Below, one piece after another: positions 268-13,603 of a stretch of DNA of 40,358 nucleotides. Position 1 is the stretch's first letter. Each line of letters begins with the position of its first letter. The notes below the pieces were generated by a model. The model had not been told where the DNA came from. It was given only the letters and a program-made list of their open reading frames with translations, and made no database searches. Origin of the DNA: an uncultured Lachnospiraceae bacterium (GTDB taxonomy: Bacteria; Bacillota; Clostridia; Lachnospirales; Lachnospiraceae); NCBI GenBank assembly GCA_947624025.1, contig CANQIJ010000003.1, forward strand, positions 1-40,358, written 5' to 3'. The position numbers and the translations under genes were made by a program.

Positions 268-1590
268 TTATTTTATCACCAGTTTTTCCTGTTTGTCAAT
301 ATGGGAATCGCATTTGTTTGATCGACCATCCGGCGGCGCGCCTCCGCAGGCCGTCCAGATATCCGCCGCCATCATCCCTGCAGAAAGAACCGTAACGCTC
401 AACGCTCTATAGCCATACCAATAGTTGAGATAAGTATGGTTCATCATAACACCCAACCAGATCAGGGGCAGCAATGCTACTATTATATATAGTCCATAAT
501 CAGGCAGCGCCCTTATGACGGTTCCGATCAGGCGGCCGCCCGTTTTTTGTCTCCGCCTGACCAATGCGGCAGCAAAGATACCCAGAGACAGGATAAACCA
601 CATCAGATAAACCTTATTTGACACCACAGACAGCGCCTTGCAGACGGATGTCCACGGCGTAGTCGCTGCCGGAGACCATTTTGTTTTCATCGAATCGCGT
701 TCCGCCAGAACATTTCGAAAGATACCCTTATCACAGCATACATAAGTCAGCACCCATTTGCTGCACCACATGGCCACATATCCGGCCAGCCAGGCCATAC
801 AGACGGCCGCAGTCCGCAATATCCTTTTGATCCGCAGACTTTTTCTGTTTTCCAGCAGATACAGCACCAATGGGAAGCCAAGCGTGATCAATGGATACGT
901 CAACAGATCGAAATAGCTGGTCAGCATACCCAGCGCCATAAAAAAATAAAGATACCATTCACTTTCCGGATCCCGTTTTACCGTCAGCAGAATAATACTG
1001 CCCGCCAGGGCAATGTAATATACCCACGAAAACTGAAGGGAAAGCGGCATTACCACCGGATTTAACAGCAGCACAGCCATCAATACAGGTATGGTGTAGA
1101 TTATCCCGTATTTTTGCATGATCAAAAACAAAAGCCATGTGACAAGGAAGGTCTGGGTAAGCAGAAAAAACAGTCTGATCTCGCTGACGTTCAGAAAAAA
1201 CAGCAGCGGCTTCAGGACAATGAGATAGCCGTGCCAGTAACGGGCATAACTGCATTCATAACGCAGAGACTCTTTAGATACTACATCGTTGGCATAATCA
1301 TTGAGTGACTGGGCCATATTGTCAGTTTGATACTCATACCGTTTATTATAAAGCGCATCCCGCAGCGCATTTCCGCTGCCCGGATGGATCGCCGTCGCGT
1401 ACATCAGCGTATCCGTATAATTATCCAGCTGACTGCTTTTCAGCCCATTCATCACCTGCGGATAGATCCCTTCATAATTGAAGACATCATCCGATTCGGC
1501 GACATGACTTTTCATTCTCGCAGTCGGAAGCATATACGCAAAAACCATGAGCATGAGGCATAAGGCCAATAGAGCCCCCCCCCACCACAA
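268..1590 (-). CDS. Polytopic membrane protein (possible GT-C/GtrII-like glycosyltransferase); 5' end frameshifted at a G9 tract, native start probably ATG at 1633
   Basis: 440-aa ORF with many hydrophobic segments. The annotated start is a TTG with weak RBS directly after an in-frame TAA. An upstream ATG (1633) with RBS GGGAGAAGG is one nucleotide out of frame across the G tract. Confidence 0.7.
   Translation of the reverse strand: MWWGGALLALCLMLMVFAYMLPTARMKSHVAESDDVFNYEGIYPQVMNGLKSSQLDNYTDTLMYATAIHPGSGNALRDALYNKRYEYQTDNMAQSLNDYANDVVSKESLRYECSYARYWHGYLIVLKPLLFFLNVSEIRLFFLLTQTFLVTWLLFLIMQKYGIIYTIPVLMAVLLLNPVVMPLSLQFSWVYYIALAGSIILLTVKRDPESEWYLYFFMALGMLTSYFDLLTYPLITLGFPLVLYLLENRKSLRIKRILRTAAVCMAWLAGYVAMWCSKWVLTYVCCDKGIFRNVLAERDSMKTKWSPAATTPWTSVCKALSVVSNKVYLMWFILSLGIFAAALVRRRQKTGGRLIGTVIRALPDYGLYIIVALLPLIWLGVMMNHTYLNYWYGYRALSVTVLSAGMMAADIWTACGGAPPDGRSNKCDSHIDKQEKLVIK
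1575..1583 (-). repeat. Homopolymer tract C9 (G9 on the coding strand) near the 5' end of the membrane protein gene
   Basis: agagCCCCCCCCCaccac read directly. Confidence 0.95.
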
Positions 1591-1900
1591 ATGCTCTTAC
1601 AAGCAGTCTCATTCCCTGTTTCCCTTTTTGCATGATACCTTCTCCCTTCTGACAGCGTTATCCCGGATCACGTTCCTAATATAGCACAATCCGATCATCT
1701 TGCCTAGAAGAAACCTTTTTTCCGCTTCCATGACAGTCCGCCCACGGCCGGACCCAAACGGCAGGACACAAAATATTCTTATTTCAAACACAATTTGCAC
1801 TTAAATGACAGATATGATGTACGTCAGGTGCGCAGCCGCGAACCGACCGTACGCGCACAGCGCCCTGACTCTGATACTGAAAGGAGGAGAGCATGGAGAT

Positions 1901-2572
1901 ATGACTTACCGTCATGAATGGAAGCATGAGATCAGCCTGTCGGATATGATCACGCTCCGGCACAGGCTCCAGGCTGTTGCACAGGCCGACGAGCATACGA
2001 CAGGCGGCACATACAAAATACGCAGCCTGTATTTTGACGATCCGTCCGACCGGGTCCTGCGCGAGAAGTTAGACGGTATCAGCAGACGCGAAAAATTCCG
2101 CATCAGATACTATAACGATGATACCTCTCTGATCCATTTGGAAAAGAAAAGCAAATTCGGGAGCTTAAGCGCCAAGGAAAGCGCTCTGATCACCGCCGGG
2201 GAGGCGCAGGCGATCCTCGACAATGATCTGCCCTGGATGGCTGGTTCCCGCGAACCTCTTGTGCGGGAGCTTTATTATAAGATGACAGTCCGGCAGCTTC
2301 GGCCGAAGACGATCGTAGATTATATCAGGGAGCCTTACATATTTCCGGCGGGCAATGTCCGTGTCACCATAGATCACGATATACGCACGGGTCTTTTGTG
2401 CACCGATCTTCTGGATCCCGAATGCGTTACCGTGCCCGCCGCCGGCCCCACGATCATCCTGGAAGTAAAATGGGATGATTATCTGCCCGACATCATCCGG
2501 TCCGCCGTACAGCTGGACGGCATACGGGCATCTGCCTTTTCCAAGTATGCGGCATGCCGCAGATACGGATGA
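1901..2572 (+). CDS. VTC domain-containing (polyphosphate polymerase-like) protein
   Basis: RHEWKHEISLSDM...KIRSLYFDD...REKFRIRYYND...IHLEKKSK...VRVTIDHDIRTG...ILEVKWDDYLPD matches the CYTH/VTC pattern. Start chosen at ATG 1901 after AAAGGAGGAGAGC. Confidence 0.85.
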   Translation: MTYRHEWKHEISLSDMITLRHRLQAVAQADEHTTGGTYKIRSLYFDDPSDRVLREKLDGISRREKFRIRYYNDDTSLIHLEKKSKFGSLSAKESALITAGEAQAILDNDLPWMAGSREPLVRELYYKMTVRQLRPKTIVDYIREPYIFPAGNVRVTIDHDIRTGLLCTDLLDPECVTVPAAGPTIILEVKWDDYLPDIIRSAVQLDGIRASAFSKYAACRRYG

Positions 2573-2678
2573 CGGCCCTTTGAACAAGTATAAAATAAAG
2601 CCCCCGGTTTCATAGGAAGAAAGCGGTGTGTTTATAAAAAATCACTGTAAAACAGATCAATAGTAAAGGAGAGAGCCC

Positions 2679-3350
2679 ATGACTTTCAATGACATCTTTA
2701 AATCCAGTTTCTTAGAAAACGTTACAAGCGTCAGTATTTTTGATATGCTGCTCGCGCTGATACTCGCTTTTGCGATCGGCATGTTCATTTTTCTTGTCTA
2801 CAAGAAAACTTACTCGGGCGTGATGTACTCTTCCAGCTTCGGCGTAACGCTTGTGGCGCTTACCATGATCACGACGCTCGTTATCCTGGCCGTTACATCC
2901 AATGTCGTTCTTTCCCTGGGTATGGTCGGCGCGCTGTCCATCGTCCGTTTCCGCGCCGCGATCAAGGAACCGCTTGAGATCGCCTATCTGTTCTGGTCTA
3001 TCGCCGTTGGCATCGTACTGGCCGCCGGACTGATACCTCTGGCTGTGATCGGCAGCGTACTGATCGGCGTATTTCTGCTTATCTTTGTCAACCGCAGATC
3101 CCATGTCAATCCCTACATCGTCGTGATCGGCTGCACGGATCATGACAGTGAACAGCGCGCGGTGGAGTATGTGGAGAAGCAGGTAAACCGTTTTGTCATT
3201 AAGAGCAAAACGGTCAGGAAGGATCTGATCGAGCTGAATGCAGAGATCAGGATGAAGGACGACAATACTGATTTTATCAATACGCTCGCCGGTATGGATG
3301 GAATCAAAAACGCGGTTTTGGTCAGCTACAACGGCGATTATATGGGGTGA
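2679..3350 (+). CDS. DUF4956-type membrane protein
   Basis: Four hydrophobic segments, core GMVGALSIVRFRAAIKEPLEIAYLFWSIAVGI; RBS AAAGGAGAGAG; in operon with VTC and CotH. Confidence 0.8.
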   Translation: MTFNDIFKSSFLENVTSVSIFDMLLALILAFAIGMFIFLVYKKTYSGVMYSSSFGVTLVALTMITTLVILAVTSNVVLSLGMVGALSIVRFRAAIKEPLEIAYLFWSIAVGIVLAAGLIPLAVIGSVLIGVFLLIFVNRRSHVNPYIVVIGCTDHDSEQRAVEYVEKQVNRFVIKSKTVRKDLIELNAEIRMKDDNTDFINTLAGMDGIKNAVLVSYNGDYMG

Positions 3351-3356
3351 TCTGTT

Positions 3357-5162
3357 ATGTCTGCGAGTAAATATATCGACCGTATCTGCTGTGTTGTCAT
3401 GGCGGCGGCGCTGATCCTGACCGTTATCTTTATGAACGGAGGGCTGCCCGGCATCCGGGCCGTAAGCTCGTCTGCCGGATATGCTTCCCGGCTGTTTGAT
3501 ACTTCCTGCGTACATACGATCAATATCGTAATGGACGACTGGGATTCTTTTATCGAAAGCTGCACCGATGAGGAATATGCCGACTGCACGGTGATCATTG
3601 ACAATGAAGCCTACCGCAATGTGGCTGTCCGCGCAAAGGGAAATACATCGCTCACCTCTGTGGAAGCCTATGGGAACAACCGCTACAGCTTTAAGATAGA
3701 ATTTGATCACTATGACGACGGCGGCAGCTACTACGGACTGGATAAGCTGTGCCTGAACAACATCATTCAGGACAATACTTATATGAAGGATTACCTCACC
3801 TATCAGCTCATGCGAAGCTTCGGCGCCGACGCGCCGTTATGCAGCTACAGCTATGTCACCGTAAACGGCGAGGACTGGGGATTATACCTTGCGGTCGAGG
3901 GCGTTGAGGAATCCTTTTTACAGAGAAGCTATGGCAGTAATTACGGGCAGCTCTACAAACCGGACAGCATGGATCTGGGCGGCGGCAGAGGCAACGGCCG
4001 CGATTTTGCCATGGAGGATCAGGCCGGAAACGTTTCCGGTCAGACCGGCGCAGAAGTCAAGGAGCCTGCTGCGCCGCCGGACGGCAGACCGGGCTGGGAC
4101 GATCAAAGCAGAGGCAAAGGAAGCAGCGATGTGTCGTTAATCTATACGGATGACGATTTTGACAGCTACTCCAACATATTTGACAACGCCAAGACCGACC
4201 TGTCGGATGCGGATAAAACCCGTCTGATCGAGGCCCTGAAGAAGCTGAATAACATGCAGGACATCGAGAATACCGTGGACGTAGAGGAAGTGCTCCGATA
4301 CTTCGTAGTGCATAACTTTGTACTGAACTTCGACAGCTATACCGGCAATATGATCCACAACTATTATCTGTATGAGAATGATGGGAAGCTCTCCATGATC
4401 CCCTGGGATTATAATCTCGCATTCGGGAGCTTTAACGGCCGGTCCGACGCGACAAGTCTTGTCAACTACCCCGTCGATACGCCTGTATCCGGCGGGACGA
4501 TAGAGTCCAGACCGATGCTCGCATGGATCTTTGCCGATGAAAAATATACCCGGCTGTATCACCGGTATTTTACCGAATTTATCAGCGAGTACTTCGACAG
4601 CGGCCGTGTCTCGGACATGATCGACTCCGTGAGGGATATGATAGCGCCTTATGTGGAGAGCGATCCAACCGCATTCTGCACTTATGAGGAATTTGAAAAC
4701 GGCGTATCCGCACTGAAAGAGTTCTGTGAACGCCGCGCCCAAAGCGTAAGCGGACAGCTTAGCGGCACGATCCCCTCCACCGCAGACGGACAGGCAGAAG
4801 ATCCCTCCTCGCTGGTAGACGGCGCCGATATTGCCGTCACCGACATGGGAAGCATGAACAAGGGTAATATGAGAGGCGGGGAATTCTCAGGGCCGAATGA
4901 ACAGCCCCGTGGTCAGGATATGGGAAAAATGGGCAGAAGGCCTCAAATGACCGAGCTGGTCAACGGAGGGGACGGGGCCCGGTGGCCCGGCGGACCGGGT
5001 GATCGGCAGGCGCAGGAGCCTGTGACCGGCTTTTCGGCTGCCAAAATACTGCTGCTCGGAGTATCCTGCGTCATTCTGGCGGCAGGCATCGCGGCCGCTC
5101 TGATCTTTAGCAGGAAAAAGCGTCTGCGCCACGCAGCCGGGTCTCACTCGTTCGGGCGGTAA
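3357..5162 (+). CDS. CotH kinase family protein, membrane-anchored
   Basis: N-terminal TM; VRAKGNTSL, YSFKIEFDHYDDG, YGLDKLCLNN, YVTVNGEDWGLYLAVEGV, NFDSYTGNMIHNYYLYE, IPWDYNLAFG motifs; Gly/Pro-rich linkers; C-terminal TM followed by basic residues. Confidence 0.85.
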   Translation: MSASKYIDRICCVVMAAALILTVIFMNGGLPGIRAVSSSAGYASRLFDTSCVHTINIVMDDWDSFIESCTDEEYADCTVIIDNEAYRNVAVRAKGNTSLTSVEAYGNNRYSFKIEFDHYDDGGSYYGLDKLCLNNIIQDNTYMKDYLTYQLMRSFGADAPLCSYSYVTVNGEDWGLYLAVEGVEESFLQRSYGSNYGQLYKPDSMDLGGGRGNGRDFAMEDQAGNVSGQTGAEVKEPAAPPDGRPGWDDQSRGKGSSDVSLIYTDDDFDSYSNIFDNAKTDLSDADKTRLIEALKKLNNMQDIENTVDVEEVLRYFVVHNFVLNFDSYTGNMIHNYYLYENDGKLSMIPWDYNLAFGSFNGRSDATSLVNYPVDTPVSGGTIESRPMLAWIFADEKYTRLYHRYFTEFISEYFDSGRVSDMIDSVRDMIAPYVESDPTAFCTYEEFENGVSALKEFCERRAQSVSGQLSGTIPSTADGQAEDPSSLVDGADIAVTDMGSMNKGNMRGGEFSGPNEQPRGQDMGKMGRRPQMTELVNGGDGARWPGGPGDRQAQEPVTGFSAAKILLLGVSCVILAAGIAAALIFSRKKRLRHAAGSHSFGR

Positions 5163-6004
5163 TAGAACCGCCCGGACAGCTCGTCCGTCCTGATCGCATT
5201 CACAAACGCATCCGCATCCGCCGCCCGGACGGCATTGATCACGGTCTTGCATTCCTGCCGGGAGACAACGGAATATACCATTTCCCTTTTATGCCGCTCA
5301 TAAGAGCCCTCGCCGTTCAAGATCGTAGCGCCGTGGCGGCTTACCCGGTTGATCACTTCACAGACCGCATCCGCATGATCCGTCACGATAAAAAGCGTCT
5401 GTTTCTGATATCTCGTGTAGAGCATATGAAGCATCTGGGTGGATGTATACTGAAAAATAATAGAATACAGCGCTTTGTCGAAGCCGAACAGCAGCCCCGC
5501 GATCATGATGATGACGATATTAAAAGCGAGGATAAAGTTCCAGGCATCCACGCCTTTTTTCTCAGACAAAAAGATAGAGATAAAATCCGTGCCGCCGGTG
5601 GTAGCGTTCATAGACAGGCACAGACTCGTTACAAACCCGTTAATGATGCCGCCGAAAATACTGATCAGAAGAATATCATAAGTGACCGCGATCTTGGGGA
5701 TCGCATCCGTCAGCACACTGGTCAGCACGATCATAAGGCAGGAATAGAGCGTAAATTTTTTACCGATAAAACGAAAACCGATATGTATGGGTACAATATT
5801 TAACAGCAGATTGATGAGCGTAAACGGGAACGTGATCTGCAGAAAGCTTTCAAAAACGCTCTGAATGAGTATCGTCAGACCTGTAACCCCTCCCGGATAC
5901 AGCCCGCCCGTGTTGACAAAGGTTTTGATATTCAGCGCCATCATCACGGATGCCAGGCAGATAACCAGGATCCGTTTTCCGTCCTTTTTCAGATCAAATG
6001 TCAT
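5144..6004 (-). CDS. YitT family membrane protein (DUF2179 C-terminal domain)
   Basis: NTGGLYPGGVTGLTILIQ, NATTGGTDFISIFLSEKKG, C-terminal TIVTDHADAVCEVINRVSRHGATILNGEGSY. Start chosen at MTFDLKKDGKR. Converges on cotH with a 19-nt overlap. Confidence 0.85.
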   Translation of the reverse strand: MTFDLKKDGKRILVICLASVMMALNIKTFVNTGGLYPGGVTGLTILIQSVFESFLQITFPFTLINLLLNIVPIHIGFRFIGKKFTLYSCLMIVLTSVLTDAIPKIAVTYDILLISIFGGIINGFVTSLCLSMNATTGGTDFISIFLSEKKGVDAWNFILAFNIVIIMIAGLLFGFDKALYSIIFQYTSTQMLHMLYTRYQKQTLFIVTDHADAVCEVINRVSRHGATILNGEGSYERHKREMVYSVVSRQECKTVINAVRAADADAFVNAIRTDELSGRFYYRPNE

Positions 6005-11733: not shown

Positions 11734-13143
11734 CTAGCGATAGCAATAATTAAGGCTCCCAAATCTGATCTCGTCGCCCGGCTCTATCTCAACCGTCTCC
11801 TGCGGCTGCATACGCAGTCCGTTTTTATAGGTGCCGTTCGTGGAATTCATGTCCGTAAGCAGGAGTTTATCGCCCTCCTTGTCGAATCTGGCGTGAATCC
11901 GGCTTACCGATGCATCCGAAAGAACAAAATCAACGCAGCCGGCCATCTTGCCGACCGTACACGGAAACGTCTGCAGATCGATATGTTTTTTGTTCTTTCT
12001 GTCCATGGCATACAGCTTATATTCTACTATATCTCTTCCGTCAAAAAATACCGTATTGCCGTAAGGCGCCGGCTCACGTTCCGCCCTCTTTAACACCGGC
12101 GGGTTTTTGTCGATCACCCGGTCAAGCGGCGGCAGAGCCTCATACTCCGTATAGGCAGGAGCCTGCACCTTCCCCGGTTCTCTGTACGGCTCCCGGTCAA
12201 AATAACGCTGGGGATCCCATTCACCGGGCCGGGCGGACACCGCCGATGCGTCCCCCTCCTGTGCCGCAGCCTTTTTTCGCCTGCCGCCCGCAAAAATTCC
12301 CACCAGACAGAACAAAAGACAGGCGCCCATCGCCGCTGCCGCTCCGTACAGCACGAGCCTCTCCTGCTGCGTCAGCTCATACAGGGTACAAACCGCCGCC
12401 GCGCCCGCTATCCCCAGAACCGACAGGATCGCAAATATCGGGTAAAACAGATTCCTGCCGGAGGAATGCCCGGCCTTGGGCGGATCGGCATCCGGCTGCT
12501 CCTGCATGACATCAAAAAACTCCGCCGTATCCGCCGCAGGCATCTTTCGCTCCACCGGGTCAAAGGACGCCACAGGAGCCTCAACGACGGCTTCCTCTTC
12601 GTCTTCTTCAAGGATCCTGAGCGCTTCCTCTAAAGAAAAGAATCTTTCCTCCGCGATCTCACAGATCCGATATATGTTGTCCGCAAGCTTCCGGTCTTCG
12701 GTATCGATATGCTCCAGGAGAAATTCTACCAACGGTTTGTAAAGACCCGTATCGGCGGCATCATAGTCAGGATAATACAGCCCGATGTATTTTCTGTTCG
12801 TCAGATCGTAATAGATATGCTCCGGCAAAAGAAGCAGCCCCGCTTCATCCATAAAATATCCCGACAGGGTTTCGCGGATCCTGCAAAGTCCCAGCAGCAC
12901 ATCCTTTACCTCCCCGTAGGACATCTTTTTACTCCGATACATATTCGCAAGCGTGGTGCGTGAGCTGATATCGTAATAGTAATATGCCGCACCGTTGATA
13001 TGCCGCACGGAGCATGCCAGGATATCCGGGATCTTACCGGATGTCAGGATCTTATACCCATAGCTGTCCGCACTCTCCCGGCGTTCGCACCGCAGTATCA
13101 TATAATTATGTCCGTAGTCTCTGTAATATTTTATCTCCAGCAT
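11734..13143 (-). CDS. DUF6382-like N-terminal domain, TM pair, and C-terminal FHA domain
   Basis: FHA core CVDFVLSDASVSRIHARFDKEGDKLLLTDMNSTNGTYKNGLRMQPQETVEIEPGDEIRFGSLNYCY. Confidence 0.88.
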   Translation of the reverse strand: MLEIKYYRDYGHNYMILRCERRESADSYGYKILTSGKIPDILACSVRHINGAAYYYYDISSRTTLANMYRSKKMSYGEVKDVLLGLCRIRETLSGYFMDEAGLLLLPEHIYYDLTNRKYIGLYYPDYDAADTGLYKPLVEFLLEHIDTEDRKLADNIYRICEIAEERFFSLEEALRILEEDEEEAVVEAPVASFDPVERKMPAADTAEFFDVMQEQPDADPPKAGHSSGRNLFYPIFAILSVLGIAGAAAVCTLYELTQQERLVLYGAAAAMGACLLFCLVGIFAGGRRKKAAAQEGDASAVSARPGEWDPQRYFDREPYREPGKVQAPAYTEYEALPPLDRVIDKNPPVLKRAEREPAPYGNTVFFDGRDIVEYKLYAMDRKNKKHIDLQTFPCTVGKMAGCVDFVLSDASVSRIHARFDKEGDKLLLTDMNSTNGTYKNGLRMQPQETVEIEPGDEIRFGSLNYCYR

Positions 13144-13159
13144 ATCCCTGTCCTTCCCT

Positions 13160-13603
13160 TCAATTCACAATGTTTCCCAGCCATCTGCTCTTACGTATCA
13201 CACGCGTCGGATTGATGATCTGCGCCCTCGCCCTCGTACGGATAAGCCAGCCTTTTTTGTCGTGCATCGTAAACAGCGACCGTATCGGTACCTTCACCTG
13301 GCATTCTCCCGTGACGTCGGTGGTATTTCCATGCCTGTCCACACTGCCGTGAACCTCGCCCGCAGCGAAATATTTGCTTCCGAATTGTTCCTTCATATGA
13401 GCATTGATATAAGGAACGACGTTATCCTCGTTCTTTTGGATGCTGCCCCGGAAACACACTGCATAAGCATCCTGAAACAGGATACATTTATCATACGAAT
13501 AGAATGACAGATAGATCAGGAACACAAAAATAAAAACCGTCCATGTGATGATAAAGGTGGCTTCCACCGTCATATAGCCCCCTGATTTTTTCTTTACAAG
13601 AAT
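13160..13603 (-). CDS. TadE-like pseudopilin; probable AUU start at 13603
   Basis: Predicted (M)LVKKKSGG|YMTVEATFIITWTVFIFVFLIYLSFYSYDKC; type IV prepilin G|xxxxE motif. The longer ORF to 14041 is an artefact overlapping the peptidase gene. Confidence 0.75.
   Translation of the reverse strand: MLVKKKSGGYMTVEATFIITWTVFIFVFLIYLSFYSYDKCILFQDAYAVCFRGSIQKNEDNVVPYINAHMKEQFGSKYFAAGEVHGSVDRHGNTTDVTGECQVKVPIRSLFTMHDKKGWLIRTRARAQIINPTRVIRKSRWLGNIVN

Follow-up and report, generated by a model that had tools for sequence, protein, structure and literature searches.

In Campylobacter jejuni, most poly-G/C tracts lie in genes whose products alter surface structures; strain NCTC11168 carries 29 loci of at least seven repeats, and strains range from 12 to 29 (PMC4965091). 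Another example is the sortase-pilus system of Bifidobacterium breve, in which an intragenic G-tract turns expression ON or OFF by replication slippage, as proven by deep sequencing (PMC9187656). Phase-variable expression of the phage-type gtr operons of Salmonella, on the other hand, is dependent on DNA methylation (PMC2909390). The locus described here lies in a window of 40,358 nucleotides (the whole stretch of DNA that was analysed, which is also the whole of contig C3 of its genome). As in C. jejuni, poly-G tracts are located in surface-modification genes, among others, and 42 G/C tracts of eight or more are present in the window genome; however, the organism is a commensal Gram-positive Lachnospiraceae of mid-GC content in which mutS1 is present, and the switching that has been shown experimentally in C. 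jejuni is inferred here. The likeness to B. breve is that of a Gram-positive gut commensal with a G-tract joining two ORFs into one gene, although the latter involves two pilus loci in an actinobacterium, whereas the window lineage belongs to the Clostridia and its tracts run to dozens, spread over many classes of gene. With Salmonella the likeness would lie in the phase variation of GtrA-GtrB-Gtr surface-glycan modification genes, which is achieved there by methylation and would be achieved here by a poly-G within the coding sequence of a gene whose gtrA and gtrB neighbours are unseen. No earlier reports for Lachnospiraceae or Acetatifactor were found in the open-access literature searched; the mechanism is of a known kind, while the lineage and the genome-wide scale in commensal Clostridia appear to be new within that literature. 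We consider it very likely that the G9 of the window is a hypermutable simple-sequence contingency tract, switched by slippage, in a gene that probably encodes a surface-glycan transferase, and that about 40 tracts of this kind exist in the genome, this one included. In vivo switching, reversibility and enzyme activity are inferred only and have not been observed.

The G9 is read directly on the minus strand (C9 on the plus strand), and with its own flanks it gave a single match in the genome by pattern search. It is more than chance, the G/C runs of the window comprising 23 of length five, none of six, seven or eight, and one of nine. The start codon ATG (1633-1631) is well formed, with its ribosome-binding site at 1646-1638, and from it the frame as assembled is translated as MQKGKQGMRLLVRAFVVGG followed by GSIGLMPHAHG..., a stop being reached after 48 codons. 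The 440-aa ORF begins with TTG at 1590-1588 and continues GGALLALCLMLMVFAYMLP; the TAA just ahead of this TTG indicates that the listed ORF start is not the natural one. A homopolymer of hypermutable length sits inside the reading frame, between the ATG 1633 leader and the 440-aa body, which are one base out of frame at this point. A tract of 8 or 11 Gs puts both in one continuous frame, so that a one-repeat change flips the product between full-length and truncated forms, and the assembled state of the gene is OFF. These observations bear out what an earlier note had read from the letters alone, namely the G9 at 1575-1583, an ATG at 1633 with a ribosome-binding site, the loss of its frame at the tract, the joining of the two parts by 8 or 11 Gs, and a TTG start with a poor ribosome-binding site behind an in-frame TAA. 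Its proposal of phase-variable poly-G switching is supported by homologue starts, by tracts and breaks within the family, by one length difference and by the peak in tract lengths across genome and genus, the switching itself being inferred.

Features of the window and G tracts in homologues of the window gene (window coordinates; cells are empty where nothing applies)
Feature	Position	Strand	Role or state	Basis
G9 homopolymer	1575..1583	minus	start of TM helix 1, proposed slippage switch	read directly
Ribosome-binding site GGGAGAAGG	1638..1646	minus	4 nt before ATG 1633	read directly
48-codon product of ATG 1633 frame	1487..1633	minus	OFF state, frame lost at G9	translation
440-aa ORF, TTG start, poor start context	268..1590	minus	polytopic membrane protein body, RYWHGY / GT-C-like family	alignment A1 with 20 homologues; AlphaFold2 model
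In-frame TAA	1597..1599	minus	two codons before TTG 1590	read directly
VTC - DUF4956 - CotH gene set	1805..5162	plus	divergent, adjoins proposed switch gene	Pfam, tblastn
L006/L090, G8	same first helix		off-frame	
L088 (COE1, named-strain draft genome), G10	same first helix		ATG MFKKVSDILKAVTTGGG, then off-frame; also OFF	
L163, G10	same first helix		in frame	
L008, G7	same first helix		in frame	
L027, G9	further into gene		gene broken in two exactly at tract	
L148/L202, G10	further into gene		gene broken in two exactly at tract	
L201, G10	further into gene		gene broken in two exactly at tract	
L013, G11	further into gene		in frame	
L024, G9	further into gene		in frame	
L204, G10	further into gene		in frame	

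In the mechanism that we propose, slipped-strand mispairing during replication would add or remove one G at the tract. With 8 or 11 Gs, translation from ATG 1633 would read into the 440-aa body and yield a complete polytopic membrane enzyme (ON), and with 9 or 10 Gs it would meet an early stop (OFF), which at 9, the assembled state, comes after those 48 codons. The enzyme would most likely move a lipid-linked sugar onto a glycan of the cell surface, as the third protein of a GtrA-GtrB-Gtr system does, and with about 40 such tracts a cell population might display many combinations of surface structures. Should the genome-wide spread of lengths (six at 8, 28 at 9, eight at 10) mirror the equilibrium, the window gene would be expected to be ON in about 15% of cells, as against about two thirds for genes whose ON length is 9. 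The length of a tract in a draft assembly can err at any single site; what carries the argument is that tracts recur at many sites, in several genes and in different genomes.

The window genome (2.55 Mb, 275 contigs, 97% complete) contains 1, 6, 28 and 8 exact G/C runs of lengths 7, 8, 9 and 10, respectively, and none longer, as derived from pattern searches (one of the 28 G9 runs is at a contig end). A first-order Markov model with the composition of the window expects about 238, 65, 19 and 8. The observed lengths thus peak at 9, with 7 and 8 nearly absent, where the base-composition model expects a steep decay, and the G9 excess is a second mode rather than a tail. The comparison was extended to 61 genomes, the window genome included, drawn from its genus and its order. 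Summed G7, G9 and G10 counts are 262, 533 and 154 in 37 same-genus genomes versus 558, 35 and 41 in 24 order-level controls, and G9 plus G10 exceed G7 in 24/37 of the former versus 2/24 of the latter (p-values for this contrast are not to be taken literally, as the genomes are phylogenetically related). Some species peak at G9 (81 in G005, 63 in G014, 60 in G010) and others at G10 (17 in G033, 16 in G032, 11 in G024). The draft genomes of 1XD21-87, 1XD21-29 and COE1 have an excess of G9/G10 beside an ordinary G7 count and, as these are named strains, metagenome-assembled genomes are not the only ones to show the pattern. Many tracts per genome that are over-represented relative to shorter runs meet the criterion of a Campylobacter-like phasome. 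It is rather probable, in our estimation, that the genus runs a genome-wide poly-G phasome of about 20-80 loci, beyond the 12-29 of C. jejuni, with G9 or G10 as a species-specific equilibrium length. A modal G10 over G9, often flanked as A/T-G10-T, was noted in G024, G032, G033, G036 and G002. Outside the genus a second case stands alone, that of G053, from another family, with 29 exact G10, 29 exact G7 and few G9. Loss of mismatch repair, in its mutS1 version, was considered as a cause and rejected, mutS1 being present and complete in the window genome; mutL was not covered.

Tracts also recur within the gene family. Matches to the window protein are present in 20 of the 61 genomes, and an alignment-based scan of genome contigs brought up over 570 related loci, the majority from gut Clostridia, where a single-protein scan of the same contigs had given no match. 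The named relatives among these put the window genome with the gut Lachnospiraceae. Several homologues carry a tract in the same first helix and others further into the gene, which is in some cases broken in two at that very point (see table). The 80 homologue loci from genome contigs hold 13 distinct tracts with a length of 8 or more, of which 7 are inside the homologue, itself about 19% of the sequence (binomial p 0.005; the test is rough, the loci having been picked by means of this very gene). Clusters of tracts have been observed as well. For example, contig KE159628.1 of COE1, which holds L088, has four G/C tracts of 8-10 in 5 kb (at 343, 2018, 3007 and 5218), in or beside GtrA, a sulfatase, the window-gene homologue and a GT2-GtrA gene, and 5 of the 11 G9/G10 tracts of this strain are inside 8.7 kb. 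On contig C47 of the window genome (G000), two G9 tracts (9346 and 10576; L060) occur in one Acyl_transf_3 ORF, and a paralogue with 33% identity to the window gene and no tract of its own (12328-13497; L023) is situated less than 3 kb from this pair.

A difference in tract length has been seen at a single homologue. The loci L091 (from a metagenome-assembled genome) and L093 (from strain 1XD21-87) have 99.16% identity across 7160 bp and differ by two indels, one of which is the tract itself, G9 in L091 and G10 in L093; both homologues are off-frame, each in a different frame. Elsewhere in the two genomes, only 2 of 19 tract flanks have a counterpart, at 81-86% identity, both being G9 in both genomes. 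This poor match means that L091 and L093 represent a near-identical locus (a local island or a shared contig) and not a strain pair, and their treatment as such a pair was rejected, only two orthologous tracts existing between the genomes. In this one instance an error of sequencing at the tract remains possible. The window locus has no further copy among the genome contigs searched, nor did a scan of viral contigs for its tract flanks reveal one. Beyond the G10 of L093, the C-terminal part of the homologue shares an ORF with a DUF6056 domain (2950-3891 and 3939-5756), so that in the ON state the two would be fused into one protein of about 930 residues.

Taken on sequence data alone, the recurrence, the length difference and the genome-wide peak favour a putative contingency tract over a chance assembly or sequencing indel. 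Under the latter explanation the true tract would have 8 Gs and the gene would be intact, without any switching. The frames do differ by a single base, and the assembly is that of an uncultured organism in 275 contigs, where homopolymer lengths are least reliable. However, an error at one site does not account for why lengths peak at 9 across the genome while 7s are nearly missing, a peak that 22 of the 24 order-level control genomes lack, or for why several homologues from independent assemblies, that of COE1 among them, are broken at their tracts; moreover, even G8 is of hypermutable length. We regard such an indel as unlikely. Polymerase slippage on long homopolymers is known, and if the frame were regained at the G run by transcriptional slippage or programmed frameshifting, without any change in DNA, a fixed fraction of full-length product would be made from one sequence. 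The G9/G10 difference in near-identical DNA and the different ON lengths of different genes fit DNA-level variation better, although both arguments are indirect, and this possibility is judged to be decidedly improbable. A slightly poorer candidate still is a recent frameshift in an ordinary pseudogene whose G run lengthened by chance, with no selected switching. It accords with the assembled OFF state and with the absence of the tract from close homologues (the nearest, L003, L004 and L086, lack it, which makes the window tract lineage-specific). Against it, the remaining 434 codons beyond the frameshift contain no stop and can be aligned with homologues over their whole length, so that decay has not begun, and the family tracts recur, often in the same helix, at a density above that of the flanks. 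Returning to the contingency tract, the starts of the closest homologues are informative. Both L003 (57% identical) and L004 (51% identical) have an ATG about 20-30 residues ahead of the same helix (MKKTGRMISFLLRAAMLAGGVLL versus MQKGKQGMRLLVRAFVV-GGALL), and the N-terminus read from ATG 1633 is equivalent to the MKKTGRMISFLLRAAMLAGGVLL of L003. The expectation that homologues begin at the equivalent of ATG 1633 was met in position and register, the leader sequence being only loosely conserved, and since they begin at this place the intact gene spans the tract. That TTG 1590 is the genuine start of a constitutive product, with the G9 having no effect, can be practically dismissed, for although the ORF is open from this codon, there is a stop two codons upstream and no good ribosome-binding site, the beginning of the helix would be cut short, and homologues open with an ATG about 20 or more residues earlier.

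The identity of the protein is less firmly established. The AlphaFold2 model is confident (pLDDT 82.5, pTM 0.86), whereas no family was found in Pfam, NCBIfam or PDB sequence searches, and Foldseek against the PDB gave no significant match, the best credible bacterial one being ArnT, a GT-C enzyme, with an E value of 0.28. GT-C transferases (ArnT 5ezm; DUF6056; TIGR03766) are polytopic membrane proteins of similar plan, and one member of alignment A1 matches TIGR03766 (XrtG-associated glycosyltransferase) at 1e-4. A GtrB-like GT2 gene lies less than 3 kb away in 28 of 80 homologue loci. GtrA is present in 5 of the 80, the order in L092 being GtrA-GtrB-homologue. The window contig stops 267 bases past the stop codon of the gene, so that a neighbouring GtrB would not be visible. 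With moderate confidence, we infer a GT-C/Gtr-type surface-glycan glycosyltransferase, partly from a non-significant fold match and without direct evidence of activity. Of the surface-type membrane protein announced by the earlier note, the membrane part is retained, and the surface protein is better replaced by a polytopic GT-C/Gtr-like enzyme that modifies the surface. On the other side of the gene, the VTC-DUF4956-CotH set also precedes the homologue in L091 and L093; its orientation is divergent in the window, and in L093 it is upstream in the same direction. We know of no functional link between this set and the window gene.

Tract genes in the window genome are of surface-modification and regulatory types, a statement that relies on a list of Pfam matches without a formal enrichment test against all genes. 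At or beside tracts there are matches to glycosyltransferase 2, MBOAT, FkbM methyltransferase, YfhO, BspA-type LRR and Acyl_transf_3 (three genes with four tracts), to subtilase, transglutaminase-like, GDSL and solute-binding proteins, and to regulators (AraC, response regulators and GGDEF-EAL). At least four more genes are one base off frame at a G10 (L040, an MBOAT; L043; L063; and the acyltransferase L078), and several other tract genes are in frame as assembled. In L078, the G10 splits one Acyl_transf_3 gene into halves that match profile positions 2-105 and 106-323. Further example sites among the 42 are L057, L060, L062, L064 and L066. A different arrangement was noted at L082 (contig C257, 1562-1570), an intergenic G9 upstream of a response regulator and about where a promoter spacer might lie (TTGCAT upstream, TTTAAT downstream), where a promoter-type switch is possible.

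These results suggest that a harmless gut commensal switches genes on and off at random, a practice familiar above all from pathogens. The lineage is abundant and has sequenced cultured relatives, and its G9/G10 tracts, dozens in number, occupy genes for surface glycans, acyltransferases, adhesin-like proteins and regulators. If the proposal is true, multi-locus simple-repeat phase variation is not limited to pathogens, and many "frameshifted" genes in gut metagenome assemblies would be OFF alleles rather than pseudogenes or errors. Strain-level diversity of the surface, with its targets for phages and antibodies, would then arise inside one population.
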